From positions 169,514-233,513 of the forward strand of contig JACPIM010000002.1 of assembly GCA_016188045.1 (NCBI GenBank): 64,000 bases of DNA, given 5' to 3'. The notes under the pieces were generated by a model. The model was not told the origin of the DNA and did no database searches. It saw only the letters and a list, made by a program, of their open reading frames with translations. Source of the stretch: Candidatus Woesearchaeota archaeon (GTDB taxonomy: Archaea; Nanobdellota; Nanobdellia; SCGC-AAA011-G17; JACPIM01). A program made the position numbers and the translations under genes. Shown piece after piece: positions 5,871 through 19,976 of this stretch (position 1 is the first letter of the stretch; each line of letters starts with the position of its first letter).

Positions 5871-6997
5871 AAGTATTCAACCTCTGCTTCAAAAGCATCA
5901 GCAGTTGGATATTCCTCCACAATAGCAGGAACCAAGCCTAGTTTTTTTATAACTTCCGTATTCTTTTTTACCAGTTTATCAGATGTTATAAACCTTATTT
6001 TTACCTCATCCAGTAATATATCTTCCTCTTTAAAATTATTCAATAATCTATTATAAAAAACTTTTAATTTCTCTTTCATTTTATTTCTATCTAAATTTTT
6101 TCCATACCCAGGTTTTAATTCAGGTAAATAAATGCACCCTCTTACCAATAATCCATCTTCAGTTATTTTGTCAAATTTTAGTGCCACGTTTTTAGATCTT
6201 AATTGTATTCTTTTTTTAACTTGAACTCCATCTTTTAATTTAGCAGTGCAAAAATGAGCTCTAAGCTTCTTGCCTTTAGCATATTCTAGTAATTTAATAG
6301 CCATAGTAGCGCTTCCTTTAACACCATAGCTGATAATATCCTTAGGCATAAATCCCAGCTCGTTAAGTTTATAATGTCCTATTTGTGTATCAGATAATTC
6401 TAATTCATTTAAATTAAGAAAATCAACTTTGTCATGAATAAAATCAATTAATTCTTTTGTTTTCTCTTGATATCCAGGAACAGAAGGAATCTCAACTCCA
6501 ACATCCCAGTTAAATTCTCTAGCAAGTTTCAAATTCTCCCATATTTTTTCGTCATCTAAATCAGGATGAAATCTTATCTCGTCTAATCCTGCTTCATATA
6601 ATTTTTTCAGTCTTTCATGATTAACAAGTATTAAAGAAGTATAAAGATGTATATGAAATTCTTTTCCAAATTTTTCCTTTAATAATTTGATATACTCACA
6701 GCACCGGTCAACATTACTTAATGGATCTCCTCCTGTTATTCCGGCACCTCTAGCCCCTGTTAATTTAGCTTCTTCCATTAACTCAACAGGATTATCAGGA
6801 TCTTTGATTTTCCATTCATTTGCATACACAACATCTTTTCCAAATTTATGCTCACTAACAGGACAATAGAAACATCTTCTAGGGCATAATCCAGTAATAA
6901 AAAGCACTAGTTTTCTCCCATGAACACATAATTCACATCCTTTTGAAATATTTCCAGTGCAATACGAGTAATATTGTGTTTTAACTACGTTTTCCAT
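5867..6997 (-). CDS. Radical SAM protein
   Basis: CPRRCFYCP (CxxxCxxC) plus upstream CELC; likely start is the internal Met (MENVVKTQYYSYC), not the ORF-track start at 7105. Confidence 0.85.
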   Translation of the reverse strand: MENVVKTQYYSYCTGNISKGCELCVHGRKLVLFITGLCPRRCFYCPVSEHKFGKDVVYANEWKIKDPDNPVELMEEAKLTGARGAGITGGDPLSNVDRCCEYIKLLKEKFGKEFHIHLYTSLILVNHERLKKLYEAGLDEIRFHPDLDDEKIWENLKLAREFNWDVGVEIPSVPGYQEKTKELIDFIHDKVDFLNLNELELSDTQIGHYKLNELGFMPKDIISYGVKGSATMAIKLLEYAKGKKLRAHFCTAKLKDGVQVKKRIQLRSKNVALKFDKITEDGLLVRGCIYLPELKPGYGKNLDRNKMKEKLKVFYNRLLNNFKEEDILLDEVKIRFITSDKLVKKNTEVIKKLGLVPAIVEEYPTADAFEAEVEYL

Positions 6998-13908: not shown

Positions 13909-14733
13909 TTACAAACTATCAATAGGGCTTTTTACCTTTATCATGTTTGGAGCAGCAGTATGTAAATATACAAAAGTTGTTTCAGGGCTTTTGTGTCCTA
14001 ATAAAGCTTGAACTTCTGATACAGAACAGCCATTTTCAATCAAATGAGTTGCAAAACTGTGCCTTAAACTATGGCAGCTTATCTTTTTGTCAATTTTGGC
14101 AATTTTTGTTGCTTTCTTTATAATTTGCTGAATGCTTCTGATATTGTATTTTGTTTTTCTATTGCTGTTAAACAAATAGTTGTCTAAGAATAATTTATCA
14201 CATTTAATTAATCCATTTATCTTCTCTTTTAAGCTCTCAGAAATAATAAAGATTCGGTCTTTATTTCCTTTGCCTAGCCTAACAAAACCATAATTTTTCT
14301 TTATATCTAAATCTTTAACTTTCAGATTAATTAATTCAGAAACCCTTAAACCAGCAGAATACATTACTTGAACCATTATCCTATGCTTTTCATTATTAAT
14401 GGCAGTAAATAGTCTCTTGACTTCTTCCTTTGTCAGAACAACAGGCAGGTTTTCAGGAACCTTGGAATATTTTATATTTAATTTCATTCTTTTTCCCAAA
14501 ATCTCTTCAAAAAAGAATTTTAAGGCATTTAAATTAACATTAATTGTATTCCCAGCTTTCTCTTTTTTAGTTAAGTTATTTAAATATTCACGAACATCTG
14601 TTTTGCTTATTTTTCCTAATTCTTTCTTGCATTCTAAAAAGAATCTATCAATGCAATATAGATAGGTTTTAATTGTTTTTTGAGAATATTTTCGCCTTAA
14701 CATTTCTCTTGTTACAGCATAATGAACATCCAT
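13909..14733 (-). CDS. Tyrosine recombinase/integrase (Xer/IntI-like)
   Basis: Catalytic set R (AGLRVSEL), K (GKGNKDR), HSLRHSF, LGHKS, Y (TFVYLHT); C-term VKSPIDSL; no obvious IntI-specific extra helix insert. Confidence 0.93.
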   Translation of the reverse strand: MDVHYAVTREMLRRKYSQKTIKTYLYCIDRFFLECKKELGKISKTDVREYLNNLTKKEKAGNTINVNLNALKFFFEEILGKRMKLNIKYSKVPENLPVVLTKEEVKRLFTAINNEKHRIMVQVMYSAGLRVSELINLKVKDLDIKKNYGFVRLGKGNKDRIFIISESLKEKINGLIKCDKLFLDNYLFNSNRKTKYNIRSIQQIIKKATKIAKIDKKISCHSLRHSFATHLIENGCSVSEVQALLGHKSPETTFVYLHTAAPNMIKVKSPIDSL

Positions 14734-14900
14734 AAAATATAAATAGAAGCCATACTTTTATAGTTTATTATTTTATTATAGGGATAAAACTGTTTAATTT
14801 ATAACTAGAGAGTTAACACAGAAAATTACGAGACACATACTGAAAACAGGGATTATAGGTTATAAAACACCAAGATATTAAGAATTTCGTATATGAACTG

Positions 14901-14976
14901 TTAATCAAAATTTATCTGCGGATAAACTCAACTCTGATGAGTTGCCTTCACATTCGTTCAGGTCGCTTAACAAGTA
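14901..14976 (+). repeat. 76-bp gene-less cassette unit, copy 1
   Basis: TTAATCAAAATTTATCTGCGGATAAACTCAACTCTGATGAGTTGCCTTCACATTCGTTCAGGTCGCTTAACAAGTA, identical to 15945..16020 and 16021..16096. Confidence 0.95.
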
Positions 14977-15001
14977 TTAAGTGAAATTGCCCTACGCCCG
15001 C

Positions 15002-15934
15002 CTATAAGATTCCTTTACCAGAATTGATGAGGATAATTTTATCTTCTTTTCTGAATTTTAGTTTAGGCAACACCCCAAAAACTACTGCACTTGACGGTTC
15101 GATATCAAACTTGTCTTTGTATTGTTTGTAGGCTTCTTTTATTTCTTCCTCATCCAATTTTATTATCCTATGTCCCTCTTTCAAAATTGATTGGATTTTT
15201 GATTTATATGGTGTCCATGGAGTATGAAGTTTGTCTGCAAAACTTTGCCATTTGTCTTTTACTCCTACACCAATCAATTTTGTCTTTAATTTGAATTTCT
15301 TAATCCCATTGTAGAAGCCTACAAATGCTTCGCCACTTCCAACTGGCAGAATTATAAAATTTGGATTTGCTTGTCTTATTTCTTCAACAATTTTCTCATA
15401 TCCTTCATGAAATCCATTTGTCACGTCCCAAATAACTTCTTCATCATTTTGACGAGCAAGTGATACTACCTCTTCTGGCTTTAAGATTTTCTCAGATAAA
15501 TTTGCTTCAATAATTTCCCCATATTTCTTCAATTCGCTCTTAATTGATTTTTTCAATTTCTTATCAACAATATTTACAATTCTTATTTTTGTTCCTTGAG
15601 AAAATCTTCCCAAACTATATCCGGCATTGCCAGAGGTGATTAAAGCTAAAGTATCCACTTGCTCTTCTTTTGCCTTTTTTATGATGATTTCGCTTCTTCT
15701 ATCCTTAAACGTTCCAAATGGATTTTTACTCTCATCTTTAATCAAAATGGCAAATCCAAATTTTTGAGCCAGTTCATCATTCTTGACTAACGGGGTGTTG
15801 CCTGATTTATTCATCATATCTATACTAAAATTATCCTCTTTTAATAAGTTTACTAAATTGGCGGGCTTCGGGCAACTCTCCTCACTCCTTCGGAGTTCGT
15901 CGGCACGTTGCACTCTCGCTAACGCTCGGCTCAC
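15002..15934 (-). CDS. PLP-dependent enzyme, threonine synthase-like (cassette cargo)
   Basis: SGNTPLVKNDELAQKFGFAILIKDESKNPFGTFKDRRSEIIIKKA (PLP lysine), TSGNAGYSLGRF; N-terminal ~25 codons of the ORF are cassette-end DNA, so the true start is probably internal. Confidence 0.8.
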   Translation of the reverse strand: MSRALARVQRADELRRSEESCPKPANLVNLLKEDNFSIDMMNKSGNTPLVKNDELAQKFGFAILIKDESKNPFGTFKDRRSEIIIKKAKEEQVDTLALITSGNAGYSLGRFSQGTKIRIVNIVDKKLKKSIKSELKKYGEIIEANLSEKILKPEEVVSLARQNDEEVIWDVTNGFHEGYEKIVEEIRQANPNFIILPVGSGEAFVGFYNGIKKFKLKTKLIGVGVKDKWQSFADKLHTPWTPYKSKIQSILKEGHRIIKLDEEEIKEAYKQYKDKFDIEPSSAVVFGVLPKLKFRKEDKIILINSGKGIL

Positions 15935-15944
15935 TTAACAAGGG

Positions 15945-16020
15945 TTAATCAAAATTTATCTGCGGATAAACTCAACTCTGATGAGTTGCCTTCACATTCG
16001 TTCAGGTCGCTTAACAAGTA
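15945..16020 (+). repeat. 76-bp gene-less cassette unit, copy 2 (tandem with copy 3)
   Basis: Identical 76-mer. Confidence 0.95.
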
Positions 16021-16096
16021 TTAATCAAAATTTATCTGCGGATAAACTCAACTCTGATGAGTTGCCTTCACATTCGTTCAGGTCGCTTAACAAGTA
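16021..16096 (+). repeat. 76-bp gene-less cassette unit, copy 3
   Basis: Identical 76-mer, direct tandem with copy 2. Confidence 0.95.
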
Positions 16097-16125
16097 TTAT
16101 ATTCAATCGTCGGCACTATTTATTA

Positions 16126-16572
16126 TTAGGGGGTCGTCTCGGGAAAAATTTCTGCTCTCAAATATAATTCTCCAACTAATTTTTCCATATCCTTTTTAAC
16201 AGCAGGAGAAATCCGTGAATGAGCAATAACTATTCTATCAGAATCACTTTCTTCAATCAGATAATTCTTTAATTCATCGAAATAATCTCCACTCAATCTT
16301 AGGTTTGAATTCATTCTTGGAGAAACATCATTTGCATATAGTCTCTTCTTAGTATGCACATTAACCTTTCCAACTAATCCTCTGTCTTCATTGTTTTCAA
16401 CAACAAGAACATCTCTAACTGTTGGTTCATACTTATATCTCCATCTAATAGTATCAACTATATGATATTCTTGTGGACTAATCCCAGTAGGTATCAAAAC
16501 TTGGGCTTGTTCAAACTTAAATCCAAACATTCTATCTAATTCTCCATCTGCCAACAAATATGCATGTCTCAT
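16126..16572 (-). CDS. Hypothetical protein (cassette cargo)
   Basis: 148-aa ORF within module 16097..16749. Confidence 0.6.
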   Translation of the reverse strand: MRHAYLLADGELDRMFGFKFEQAQVLIPTGISPQEYHIVDTIRWRYKYEPTVRDVLVVENNEDRGLVGKVNVHTKKRLYANDVSPRMNSNLRLSGDYFDELKNYLIEESDSDRIVIAHSRISPAVKKDMEKLVGELYLRAEIFPETTP

Positions 16573-16812
16573 ACTATGTGATATAAATGATGTATTTATA
16601 AATGTTTTTCTATGTTACTACCTTATGATCAATAAAATAATCCTCGCCGACCCCCATTTTTAACTCTAGTGCCGACAACTTTGAGTTTTCCTTTCAGGAC
16701 GTTGCACTAAAACTCAACCCTTCCAAGTATTCAGGAGAACCTAACATGATTATGCAAAATTCCAAATGCGCGCTTCCAAACTTTTATAAACATCCGTTAA
16801 ATTTATTTGAAT

Positions 16813-17421
16813 ATGACAAAATTACTTTTAACATCTACGGGGCTTGCAACCCAAAATATCACGGATCAGTTTTTGCAGATAATTAATAAGCCAGTTTCTC
16901 AAATAAAAATTATTTTTATTCCCACCGCATCAAGAAGTGAGGAAGAATTAAAATACGTTGATGAATCTAAAAAAGAACTTCTTGATTTAGGTATTTCTGA
17001 AAATAACATCAAAACTTTGAATTTAGATAGTTCTGTTTTATTTGAGGAAGTTGAAGATTTTGATGTTATTTATGTATGCGGCGGAAACACTTTTTACTTG
17101 TTGAAGAAAGTTAGAGAAACTGGCTTTGACAAAGTAATTATTGAATTTGCAAAAACTGATAAACTTTACTTCGGAGTAAGTGCGGGAAGTATTTTGGTTT
17201 GCCCAAATATTGATATTGCAAGCCCCTTTGACGAAAATGATGTCAATTTAACTGATTTAACTGGATTAAATTTAACTGATGTAATTGTTTCCCCTCACTA
17301 TAAAAATGAAGAAAAGGCAATCATTGATGATTTTAAAAAAAAGTCGCAATACGAAATTGTACCTTTAACTGACGAGCAAGCATTATTAGTTGTTGACGGG
17401 GAAACAAAAATAGTGGAATAG
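16813..17421 (+). CDS. Peptidase S51/peptidase E-like (class I GATase-like) protein, cassette cargo
   Basis: VIYVCGGNTFYLLKKVRETG ... YFGVSAGSILVCPNI (nucleophile-elbow Ser); start at second Met of the ORF. Confidence 0.85.
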   Translation: MTKLLLTSTGLATQNITDQFLQIINKPVSQIKIIFIPTASRSEEELKYVDESKKELLDLGISENNIKTLNLDSSVLFEEVEDFDVIYVCGGNTFYLLKKVRETGFDKVIIEFAKTDKLYFGVSAGSILVCPNIDIASPFDENDVNLTDLTGLNLTDVIVSPHYKNEEKAIIDDFKKKSQYEIVPLTDEQALLVVDGETKIVE

Positions 17422-17506
17422 CGCGCACATTTGGAACTCAAGGGGACGCTGCGCTTTCGCTCCACTCCGTTACGCTCACCCTCGTATAACAAGGATTATG
17501 TCTAAT

Positions 17507-17875
17507 TCAGAATTCGGGCTTGAAAGGATTTTGTATCAATCTTCCTCTATAAACCGAATTACCATTCACACCTGCGCCGCAACCGCAAGTCTTTCTTTTG
17601 TCAACAAAATCCTTTGGATCTAATCCATATTTACGAATTTCATCTTGAAATTCTCGTGGGCAACAATCCTTATTTTCAACTTTTGCTAAACCATATTTAG
17701 GAGCATTATCCTCAAACCAACCATCTCCACCAGTAAACATAATATATGCTTCTGAACCATGACCTTCGCAACTATCAGTTGTTTTGTAACAATGTTTCCA
17801 TAGTTGTCCAACTAATTCTCGTAATTCTTCATCTATTCTCAATCTTTCCATAGTTGCGAGCGTATTTCTTTTCAT
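17507..17875 (-). CDS. Conserved hypothetical Cys-rich protein, cassette cargo
   Basis: CYKTTDSCEGHGSEAYIMFTGGDGWFEDNAPKYGLAKVENKDCCPREF; stop codon lies inside the left inverted arm. Confidence 0.65.
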   Translation of the reverse strand: MKRNTLATMERLRIDEELRELVGQLWKHCYKTTDSCEGHGSEAYIMFTGGDGWFEDNAPKYGLAKVENKDCCPREFQDEIRKYGLDPKDFVDKRKTCGCGAGVNGNSVYRGRLIQNPFKPEF

Positions 17876-18149
17876 ATTACTATTATGTTTACTTTTTAGT
17901 TTTTAAAGTTTTCTATTGTTGCCATTGATAAGTTACAAATAATTGATTGCTCCCGAATTCTGAACTCTCCTCACTCCGTTCGTCACCACGCTGCGCTCTC
18001 CTCCTTTCAGTCGTCGGGAGACATAACAAGTATTAAGTTCAATTTTGCTGACTTAAAATAAAAAACATTGAGGGTGCCACTTGACGATTGTTCTTATATG
18101 TGCACAAACAACCGAAAGTTTTATATATTATGTGCCCTTACAATATTAT

Positions 18150-19088
18150 ATGGCCTACATAGAAACAATAAAACGGAACAAAAAGGAGTATTATTACCTC
18201 ACAAAAAACGTAAGGCTCATCTTAAACAAATGGAAAAAGGTTAGGATTTTCTTAGGGGGTAAAAAACCTTCACAAGAAGAGCTAAAAAAATATGCCAAGG
18301 AGATAGAAGATAAATCAAAACCTTTCTTAAAAGCATCAAATTATGCTTATCTTTCAGAGCGTGATGCAGAAACTTTGCAGGATTTAAAGGAGAGCTACAG
18401 CACATGGCTTAAACAAATCCCAAAAAGTGTTAAAGAAAAGCTGAATGAGGATTTTGTTATACGATTTACGTACCATTCCAATGCAATTGAAGGTAATAGG
18501 TTGACATTAAGGCAGACTGCCCTCATTCTTAAAGATAAAGTAATCCCTTCTGGAGTAAGAGCAGAAGATTATAATGAAGCAATAAACGGAAAAGAATGCT
18601 TAGATTACATAAAATTGTATAAAGGTGAATTAAACACTAAACTGCTTGAAAAAATAAACGGAATTCTTACCAAAAATACTGGAGCAGTATATGGTGGGAG
18701 AATACGCTTTTTTAATGTGCAGATACAAGGCTCAACTCATGTTCCTCCGCCCCATACAGAAGTTAAAAAGCATATGCTAAATTTTTTAAAGTGGTATAGT
18801 GCAAACAAAAATAAATTGCATCCATTTGAGTTGGCGGCCTTGATTCATGCAAAATTAACATGGATACATCCTTTTGAGGATGGGAATGGCAGAACTTCAA
18901 GGACAATTATGAATTTTATATTAATGAAGAAAGGATTCCCTATGTTCTTCATACCTTTTGAGAAAAGAGAAGAGTACTATCAATCATTAGACATTGCTGA
19001 TAAAGGAGAATATAAAGAGTACATCTCTAAAATGCTTCAGTTAATTATAGATCAGATAAGAAGTTACGGGCACAATAAGAAAGAATAA
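18150..19088 (+). CDS. Fic family protein, cassette cargo
   Basis: Fic motif HPFEDGNGRTSR; NAIEGNRLTL; ATG at 18150 follows a BRE/TATA-like CCGAAAGTTTTATATATTA. Confidence 0.92.
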   Translation: MAYIETIKRNKKEYYYLTKNVRLILNKWKKVRIFLGGKKPSQEELKKYAKEIEDKSKPFLKASNYAYLSERDAETLQDLKESYSTWLKQIPKSVKEKLNEDFVIRFTYHSNAIEGNRLTLRQTALILKDKVIPSGVRAEDYNEAINGKECLDYIKLYKGELNTKLLEKINGILTKNTGAVYGGRIRFFNVQIQGSTHVPPPHTEVKKHMLNFLKWYSANKNKLHPFELAALIHAKLTWIHPFEDGNGRTSRTIMNFILMKKGFPMFFIPFEKREEYYQSLDIADKGEYKEYISKMLQLIIDQIRSYGHNKKE

Positions 19089-19401
19089 TTCTTTGAATTG
19101 TGCACATACAATAATACTCACTAACAAACACCCAGATTCTTACTGCTTTTAATGTGAGTGTGCCCATTTATACTTGTCCTTGACGTATCGCTTCGCTAAT
19201 TTGATAGTACGGTGCCCCGAGTAATAACTCTGCGGACAAAGTTTGCCAGAACTCCACTTCGTTCGTAACTGGCGACGCAACTAACAGGAATTTATACGCA
19301 AGGAAATTTGAATTTTTTCTTAGACTATTATAGAGGGATTTTCCTTTTCTGTAATTGAAACAATGTAAACATTTATATTAATTGTTCACTTATATAATAA
19401 T

Positions 19402-19683
19402 ATGAATGATAAAACAATTGCCACGGGTGTAGTGCATGAAGTACCTGAAGATTTACAAAAAGCTTTAATTGCCAATCCTACTGTGCTTGAAAAATGGAAT
19501 AGCCTTACTACTCTTGCACGTAACGAGTGGATTTGCTGGACCACTATTGTTAAAAAATCAGAAACAAGAAAAGAACACATAAATCGTTTACGTGAAGATC
19601 TTCTCAAAGGGAAGAAAAGACCTTGTTGCTGGCCCGGATGTCCTCATCACAGACCAAATGCGAAAAAGTGGTTTAAAAAATAA
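19402..19683 (+). CDS. YdeI/OmpD-associated (OmdA)-like protein, cassette cargo
   Basis: VPEDLQKALIANPTVLEKWNSLTTLARNEWICWTTIVKKSETRKEHINRLREDLLKGKK pattern. Confidence 0.7.
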   Translation: MNDKTIATGVVHEVPEDLQKALIANPTVLEKWNSLTTLARNEWICWTTIVKKSETRKEHINRLREDLLKGKKRPCCWPGCPHHRPNAKKWFKK

Positions 19684-19795
19684 AACCTACAGCAGAAAAT
19701 CCCTTATTTATGATGAAACAATTTAAATTCGACTCACTCCGCTTCGCTCCGAACCACATTGCACTCTCGCTATCGCTCGGGGCATTTAACAGCGA

Positions 19796-19865
19796 TTATG
19801 CAAAATTTATCTGCGGATAAACTCAACTCTGATGAGTTGCCCTTAACAGGGTAGCATAACATGTA
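19796..19865 (+). repeat. 70-bp variant gene-less cassette unit
   Basis: Shares CAAAATTTATCTGCGGATAAACTCAACTCTGATGAGTTGCC with the 76-bp units, then CCCTTAACAGGGTAGCATAACATGTA^TTATGC. Confidence 0.85.
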
Positions 19866-19976
19866 TTATGCAAAATTTTCCAAAAGGAAAACCAAGCCAG
19901 CAAAAATTATCAAATTAAAAATCTTACTTGACAATTCTACCAAATATTTATAAAATTTAATCTCTAAATTACTTTT

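Follow-up and report, generated by a model that had tools for sequence, protein, structure and literature searches.

Adjoining a tyrosine recombinase gene of Candidatus Woesearchaeota archaeon (GCA_016188045.1) is a tandem array that very probably constitutes a gene-cassette capture platform, integron-like in its working and distinguished by another class of recombinase and a differently folded cassette site. The window, referring to the whole stretch of DNA analysed, comprises 64,000 nt of contig JACPIM010000002.1 (169,514-233,513, forward). A preliminary description had placed in it a minus-strand recombinase gene, a leader and ten modules carrying one gene or none with unrelated functions, and all of these are present (Table 1). 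Six of the ten modules hold a single gene, in mixed orientation, and four are empty; Pfam confirmed a PALP enzyme, a peptidase S51, a Fic and an OmdA protein among the cassette genes, with no significant match for two of the six. The parts of the platform, their conserved order and the paired cassette ends are evident at the level of sequence, and the whole is read as an integron-like platform of a new class without I2, whose recombination we infer.

Table 1. Recombinase gene, attI-like site and cassettes in the window (^, crossover)
Feature	Coordinates	Strand
Tyrosine recombinase, 274 aa, IntI/XerA-like without the IntI-specific (I2) insertion	13909..14733	-
Leader, 167 bp, recombinase start codon to first cassette	14734..14900	n/a
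attI-like site TTTCGTATATGAACTG^TTA, crossover 14900/14901	14885..14903	+
Cassette 1, empty, 76 bp: start, TGC-closed arm hairpin, variable part	14901..14976	+
Cassette 1 end: L' CGCTTAAC, spacer AAGTA	14901..14976	+
Cassette 2, 968 bp: PLP-dependent enzyme gene (minus strand)	14977..15944	+
Cassette 2 ends: core TTAAGTGA / TCACTTAA, arm TTGCCCTACGCCCGCC at nt 11, spacer AAGGG	14977..15944	
Cassette 3, empty, 76 bp, sequence identical to cassette 1	15945..16020	+
Cassette 4, empty, 76 bp, sequence identical to cassette 1	16021..16096	+
Cassette 5, 653 bp: 148-aa gene, function unknown (minus strand); arm TCGTCGGCACTA	16097..16749	+
Cassette 6, 746 bp: peptidase S51 gene (plus strand); arm TTCCAAATGCGCGC	16750..17495	+
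Cassette 7, 537 bp: 122-aa gene (minus strand)	17496..18032	+
Cassette 7 ends: core TTATGTCT / AGACATAA, arm TTCAGAATTCGGG	17496..18032	
Cassette 8, 1259 bp: Fic-domain gene (plus strand); end pairing degenerate	18033..19291	+
Cassette 9, 504 bp: OmdA/YdeI-like gene (plus strand); end pairing degenerate	19292..19795	+
Cassette 10, empty, 70 bp: core TTATGC / GCATAA, arm TTTATC	19796..19865	+
Array end, last start: probable start remnant of one more cassette, TTATGCAAAATTTTCC...GGAAAACC	19866..19895	+

The recombinase matches Pfam Phage_integrase and scores 222 bits with the NCBIfam model recomb_XerA_Arch (cut-off 220), while the integron integrase model TIGR02249 gives 207, below its cut-off of 265. 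The IntI-specific domain around patch III (I2) is missing: the spacing from GKG to HxLRH is 60-69 aa (one 80) in the recombinase clade vs 103-115 in IntI, alignment to the PDB structure of IntI4 leaves out IntI4 residues 197-237, and the extra helix is absent from the predicted structure. Lacking the insertion, the recombinase is not an IntI; the integron reading of the preliminary description is supported for layout, attI-like site and tandem cassettes, with corrections for the recombinase and the cassette site. The presumed catalytic tyrosine, Y256, occupies an invariant column. According to established work IntI requires the I2 helix to capture cassettes (PMC7790495), which speaks against the platform reading. 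A viral scan returned no locus more than 40% identical to the recombinase, and its IntI-like matches carry the insertion.

Ahead of the first cassette, a site of the TTTCGTATATGAACTG^TTA type is kept across the clade, and most related loci have it in the same position. Integrons have an attI beside the integrase gene, and by its sequence this site would qualify. The predicted crossover has the form x^TTA, with the consensus TTAKKY (cf. integron G^TTRRRY); most attI-like sites and several arrays have G at x, others A.

The short junction box by which the modules had been delimited is, by itself, hardly above chance in AT-rich DNA (TTAAC-N5-TTA, 15 seen in the window vs 9.0 expected) and was rejected as a cassette signal; a similar junction at 6621, considered as a second site, falls within a gene and is probably fortuitous. 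Significance comes from additional pairing between start and end, since in a clean cassette the start pairs twice with the cassette's own end. The first 8 nt pair as a terminal core with the 8 nt ahead of the cassette's own 3' crossover, and a second, longer arm from nucleotide 11 forms a stem that flanks the gene, beside an A.C mismatch (bottom strand: G.T) whose A at position 10 and opposing C are invariant across 43 distinct cassettes. In a set of cassettes partly selected for pairing, the cores of own start and own end matched at 4.45 of 5 informative positions, compared with 1.87 for the ends of other cassettes and 2.18 for the start of the next cassette, and none of 5000 partner shuffles approached the own-end score. 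The bottom strand folded better in 45 of 51 cassettes. The preliminary description had taken the junctions for the L'-spacer-R' half of an attC; the canonical pairing R''-L''...L'-R' is not present, as L''/R'' matches in the 43 cassettes were not above shuffled sequence (mean length of the longest L'' match, 3.3 nt), and each end pairs with the start of its own cassette.

An initial, looser detector of cassettes produced many false matches in AT-rich DNA, so a strict rule with fixed arm position and exact core was adopted. In the window it is passed by cassettes 2 and 7, the remaining ones being weaker or degenerate, with poor pairing in cassettes 8 and 9. The curated cassette list contains one entry with a misplaced start (L045 273-722), by which the conclusions are unaffected. 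About 20 different spacers occur among the 43 cassettes, empty-cassette copies of one sequence keep their own spacer in different contexts, and all spacers of one array read ATCG.

In the proposed mechanism, the recombinase would excise cassettes as circles and insert them at the attI-like site that adjoins its gene, presumably crossing over at spacer^TTA. Once circular, a cassette would have its end (L' plus spacer) joined to its start, giving a palindromic core with an 8-nt half-site on each side of a 4-6 nt spacer, and the gene-flanking arms would close a second stem around the variable hairpin. The varying spacers, together with the spacer kept by empty copies, point to a single crossover point. 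One strand may be exchanged at the R' side and then resolved by replication, with the invariant A.C (top) or G.T (bottom) position favouring the bottom strand; we lean, with limited confidence, towards this single-strand step.

A tentative but serious alternative, competing with the single-strand step only and not with the platform reading, is full double-strand Xer exchange at the palindromic 8-spacer-8 core, in which heteroduplex spacers are repaired later and the gene-flanking arms serve expression or cassette genesis, not strand choice. The circular core would match a double-strand Xer/attI site in its 8-6-8 geometry, I2, the source of single-strand ability in IntI (PMC7790495), is missing from the recombinase, and an array with ATCG spacers throughout would leave both strands exchangeable. 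However, spacers vary widely in other arrays, and the bottom-strand bias and the invariant G.T suggest a role for folded single strands.

The platform is not confined to the window. In a sample of 371 genomes from the phylum, all apparently MAGs, about 71 carry the recombinase clade, with Woesearchaeota, Pacearchaeota, Nanoarchaeota and Aenigmatarchaeota among the named relatives. The intI-attI-cassette layout of the preliminary description recurs at many clade loci as recombinase, attI-like site and tandem cassettes with differing genes, and recombinases 44-64% identical adjoin arrays of like design carrying different genes. On the array sides of related loci the strict rule found 36 matches vs 2.2 expected from shuffles and 3 on the opposite strand; with two consensus triplets added, 31 vs 0. 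Derived from a first locus set and tried on 14 further loci, the rule recovered 19 cassettes at 7 of the 14, every one on the expected side and strand; the opposite strand and the remainder of the loci gave 0 strict matches. It found none at 20 housekeeping Xer loci (398 kb) and none at 60 loci of other recombinases, IntI among them (890 kb). Shuffles yielded 0 for the special sets, 0 for the 60 other loci and 0.1 for the Xer loci. At about half of the related loci with an array side of more than 1 kb no strict cassette was found, and many contigs stop 180-450 nt beyond the recombinase on the array side.

Similar ends enclose different genes across ten genera, ends near-identical to those of cassette 7 surround other genes in two other genomes, and in one relative nine clean cassettes stand in tandem, their cargo including TA, methyltransferase and peptidase genes. 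Genes in cassettes are found on both strands (28 plus, 30 minus), thus no single Pc is evident. A second genome carries, within its array region, a relative 91% identical to the Fic gene of the window; the recombinases of the two genomes are only 46% identical, and an OmdA relative comes after the Fic gene in both. Ends and genes are in this way common to arrays of distant genomes; neither a recombination event nor a circular cassette nor a rearrangement between strains was seen. Conserved gene order in relatives had been named beforehand as evidence against an integron; gene order is not shared. An empty site was sought by synteny with a same-family genome at gltX and none was found, gltX being the sole shared gene.

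The cassettes could instead be small non-autonomous transposon-like elements with terminal inverted repeats. A Xer-type recombinase would move them, their head-to-tail nesting would reflect chance or target preference, and there would be no true attI platform. Clean cassettes do possess 8-nt terminal and longer subterminal inverted repeats, empty elements occur and the spacers look like coupling sequences, but this explanation is very unlikely, given that arrays begin at one conserved site adjoining the recombinase, orientation is uniform, without strict matches on the opposite strand or elsewhere in the loci, and the tandem arrangement is perfect, with shared cut points.

Canonical integrons (IntI, attI, attC; class 1, Vibrio superintegrons) resemble the platform in the recombinase gene pointing away from the array with attI adjacent, in tandem cassettes with one gene or none, the crossover x^TT and the spacer on the upstream cassette, in the better folding of the bottom strand and in diverse cargo including TA systems. 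The window-type system differs in its recombinase without I2, in cassette sites that replace L''/R'' with own-start pairing and gene-flanking arms from nucleotide 11, and in cassette genes on both strands. The archaeal integrons of Ghaly et al. 2022 (PMC9668308) likewise come from archaeal MAGs, including Nanoarchaeota, and form cassette arrays; their IntIs are reported with the IntI-specific domain, their attCs were found by the canonical model, their cassettes lie mostly in one orientation, and the parts of that report consulted do not mention the window recombinase clade. A literature search, with most subscription journals and preprints outside its coverage, found no paper on this clade with cassettes.

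Also very unlikely is a canonical integron remnant, a CALIN whose attC sites are genuine and whose IntI lies elsewhere, the adjacent Xer-like gene being incidental. The x^TTA crossover, the L'-spacer-R' order and the GC-rich variable parts are attC-like, and CALINs in Nanoarchaeota are reported by Ghaly et al. (PMC9668308); nevertheless, L'' matches remain at shuffled level, the window genome holds a single recombinase of such type, and the cassettes are tied specifically to the clade, with its conserved attI-like site.

The clade is monophyletic (100/100) and apart from archaeal Xer, and many of its genomes carry a housekeeping Xer as well, so judged by the phylogeny the recombinase is not an orthologue of the archaeal chromosomal Xer. 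A place in a housekeeping XerA clade without cassette association was the other ground against an integron named beforehand, and it does not apply. That a housekeeping XerA for chromosome dimer resolution lies beside a repetitive region by coincidence is scarcely credible, for although the recomb_XerA_Arch score just exceeds its cut-off and no other Xer match was found in the window genome, this recombinase belongs to a clade of its own, associated with cassettes at the further loci and not at the housekeeping Xer loci. Archaeal XerA/dif shares with the platform the closest curated HMM, equal length and a likely 8-6-8 double-strand core; the clade is separate, additional to the housekeeping Xer in many genomes and tied to cassette arrays. 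p-dif modules (Acinetobacter plasmids, XerC/D) likewise place gene modules between Xer-type core sites. They have inversely oriented dif sites and use the housekeeping XerC/D, whereas the window array has directly oriented sites, an attI-like site and a dedicated recombinase.

The best tree groups the clade with archaeal Xer (95/79), while the AU test did not reject a grouping with IntI (p 0.31) and a larger quick tree scored that grouping slightly better (p 0.57). An origin independent of IntI was therefore not accepted as proven, and either IntI or archaeal Xer would be the sister. The platform probably represents a second integron class, derived from archaeal Xer independently of IntI and having a fold-dependent cassette site of its own, or, if the clade is sister to IntI, a surviving form from before I2.

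The I2 helix is held to have made integrons possible (PMC7790495). A widespread I2-less cassette platform would show a second route to an integron-like device, or its precursor, and would open the origin of integrons to direct test. A recombinase without the part thought essential for integrons, together with cassette ends that fold differently, suggests that evolution reached a gene-collecting device by a second path. Integron searches demanding the IntI domain would overlook such platforms. The empty cassettes and the near-identical ends around unrelated genes bear on how cassettes are made. DPANN archaea, with their very small genomes, would have a dedicated means of collecting genes.

The minus-strand tyrosine recombinase, the leader and the ten modules claimed in the preliminary description were all recovered by ORF and sequence analysis, and the contig is archaeal, since genes that we take from their ORFs to be gltX and those of ribosomal proteins L7Ae and S28e are located no more than 3 kb away. 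Six of the ten modules carry cargo, namely a PALP enzyme, a peptidase S51, a Fic protein, an OmdA-like protein and two unknowns of 148 and 122 aa; the other four are empty, three of them being 76-bp copies of one sequence. Similar GAGTGTGCC...TTGTCC sequences occur on both flanks of the Fic gene, whose likeness to L268, a locus in a related genome, ends before the cassette ends are reached.

Features of the recombinase-cassette locus in window coordinates (^, putative crossover)
Feature	Position	Strand	Basis
Tyrosine recombinase, 274 aa	13909-14733	minus	ORF and profile matches
Leader, 167 bp	between recombinase start codon and first module (14901)
attI-like site, TTTCGTATATGAACTG^TTA	14885-14903
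Ten module starts	14901, 14977, 15945, 16021, 16097, 16750, 17496, 18033, 19292, 19796
Cassette with shared ends	17496-18032
Fic gene	18069-19218

The two ends of every module were joined and folded, and one anatomy recurred, in which cassette nucleotides 1-8 (TTA plus five) pair with the 8 bases preceding the C of AAC at the cassette's own end, and a second stem begins at nucleotide 11 with its partner just downstream of the gene, followed by a variable hairpin region, L' and a spacer of 4-6 nt (33-127 nt from second-arm end to cassette end, L' and spacer included). Positions 9-11 read AAT in 95, 100 and 98% of 43 distinct clean cassettes, opposite A-C-T (98, 100 and 95%), so that the invariant A at position 10 faces C, which leaves the top strand mismatched there and gives the bottom strand a G.T pair; the bottom strand folded better in 45 of 51 cassettes (mean advantage 1.6 kcal/mol). 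Own start and own end matched far above shuffled partners and also above the next cassette's start, as circular units would need, in a comparison whose cassettes were partly chosen for pairing. Cleaner evidence came from a rule fixed on the first locus set (start TT[AG]N5[AC]AT, exact 8-nt core, an arm at nucleotide 11 that scores 9 or more and is followed by ACT or ACG) and applied to 14 further loci, each with >1 kb of array side. In total, 19 cassettes turned up at 7/14 loci, each with the expected side and strand, and none elsewhere in these loci or in their shuffles. Neither the 20 housekeeping Xer loci (398 kb) nor the 60 loci with other recombinases, IntI among them (890 kb), yielded a cassette; the hypergeometric probability of 7/14 versus 0/20 is ~6e-4 by our own arithmetic.

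The nearest recombinases within the order (50-64% identity) adjoin arrays of the same kind, and a scan of named genomes placed the clade in Woesearchaeota, Pacearchaeota, Nanoarchaeota and Aenigmatarchaeota MAGs. Clade matches, defined by E values of 1e-103 or better and separated by a gap from housekeeping Xer at ~1e-94 and weaker, occurred in ~71 of 371 sampled genomes of the phylum. One Woesearchaeota genome holds nine clean cassettes in tandem, with a nucleotide-kinase-like protein, an LD-carboxypeptidase, two methyltransferases (92% identical), a ParE-family toxin and a PIN/ribbon-helix-helix pair as cargo. Such cassettes also occur at L214, L215 and L216, in genomes lacking a recombinase-clade match (G074, G050 and G030), and are perhaps orphan arrays or reflect incomplete assemblies. 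In the L271 array (G182), short units of 100-150 bp lie between cassettes, apparently with TTAAG replacing the TTAAC half-sites. No Xer match besides the window recombinase was found in the window's genome, many relatives carrying both; either a second was missed by the assembly or one protein serves both roles.

A TTYCRYATATANANTG^TTA-type site, its consensus drawn by eye, recurs where most arrays begin, typically 100-260 bases upstream of the recombinase start codon. In many relatives the contig breaks 180-450 bases beyond the recombinase gene start, as expected of an array that is repetitive or variable within the population. Repeats of TGTCCAGTG, none of them in the window, lie between recombinase start and attI-like site in many relatives (the L256, L258, L262, L069, L063 and L269-L271 leaders), and may serve as an operator or as accessory sites for the recombinase.

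Several likenesses between genomes are signs of cassette transfer, short of proof of recombination. One window cassette, L070 and L034 (three genomes) share ends that are near-identical over 24 bp of the start and about 90 bp of the end, around unrelated genes, as if cargo had been swapped within a retained frame, which bears on cassette genesis. The window Fic gene is 91% identical to an array-region gene of a genome with a recombinase of only 46% identity, an OmdA relative (65%) being next after it in both genomes. For a nitrilase cassette gene, too, another genome carries a 92% relative. One variable-region sequence recurs in ten genera with different arms.

Beyond the platform anatomy and recombinase association, which are seen in the sequences, cassettes would be excised as circles and inserted at the attI-like site. 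The lack of I2 and the palindromic core of 8-6-8 geometry fit a double-strand reaction, but the variable spacers kept by the upstream cassette point to one crossover point and hence to single-strand exchange, which is slightly preferred.

By sequence and predicted structure, the nearest relatives of the recombinase are IntI4 of Vibrio and archaeal XerA. The IntI-specific insertion I2, described as required for cassette capture and found nowhere else (PMC7790495), is absent from the clade by motif spacing, with 60-69 residues between two catalytic motifs (80 in one member) versus 103-115 in IntI, and the predicted structure model has no extra helix at the I2 position. Archaeal integrons are already on record, with IntI-type recombinases and canonical attC (PMC9668308); the present recombinase differs in lacking the insertion. 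A cassette platform without I2 was not described in the literature searched, most subscription journals and preprints being outside its coverage. In its layout and proposed working the platform is integron-like, in line with the preliminary description, but two defining membership tests, those for I2 and for canonical attC pairing, gave negative results. Trees recovered the clade as monophyletic, and the best tree groups it with archaeal Xer, but grouping with IntI is statistically not rejected, so that the clade may reflect either convergence or a pre-I2 relic.
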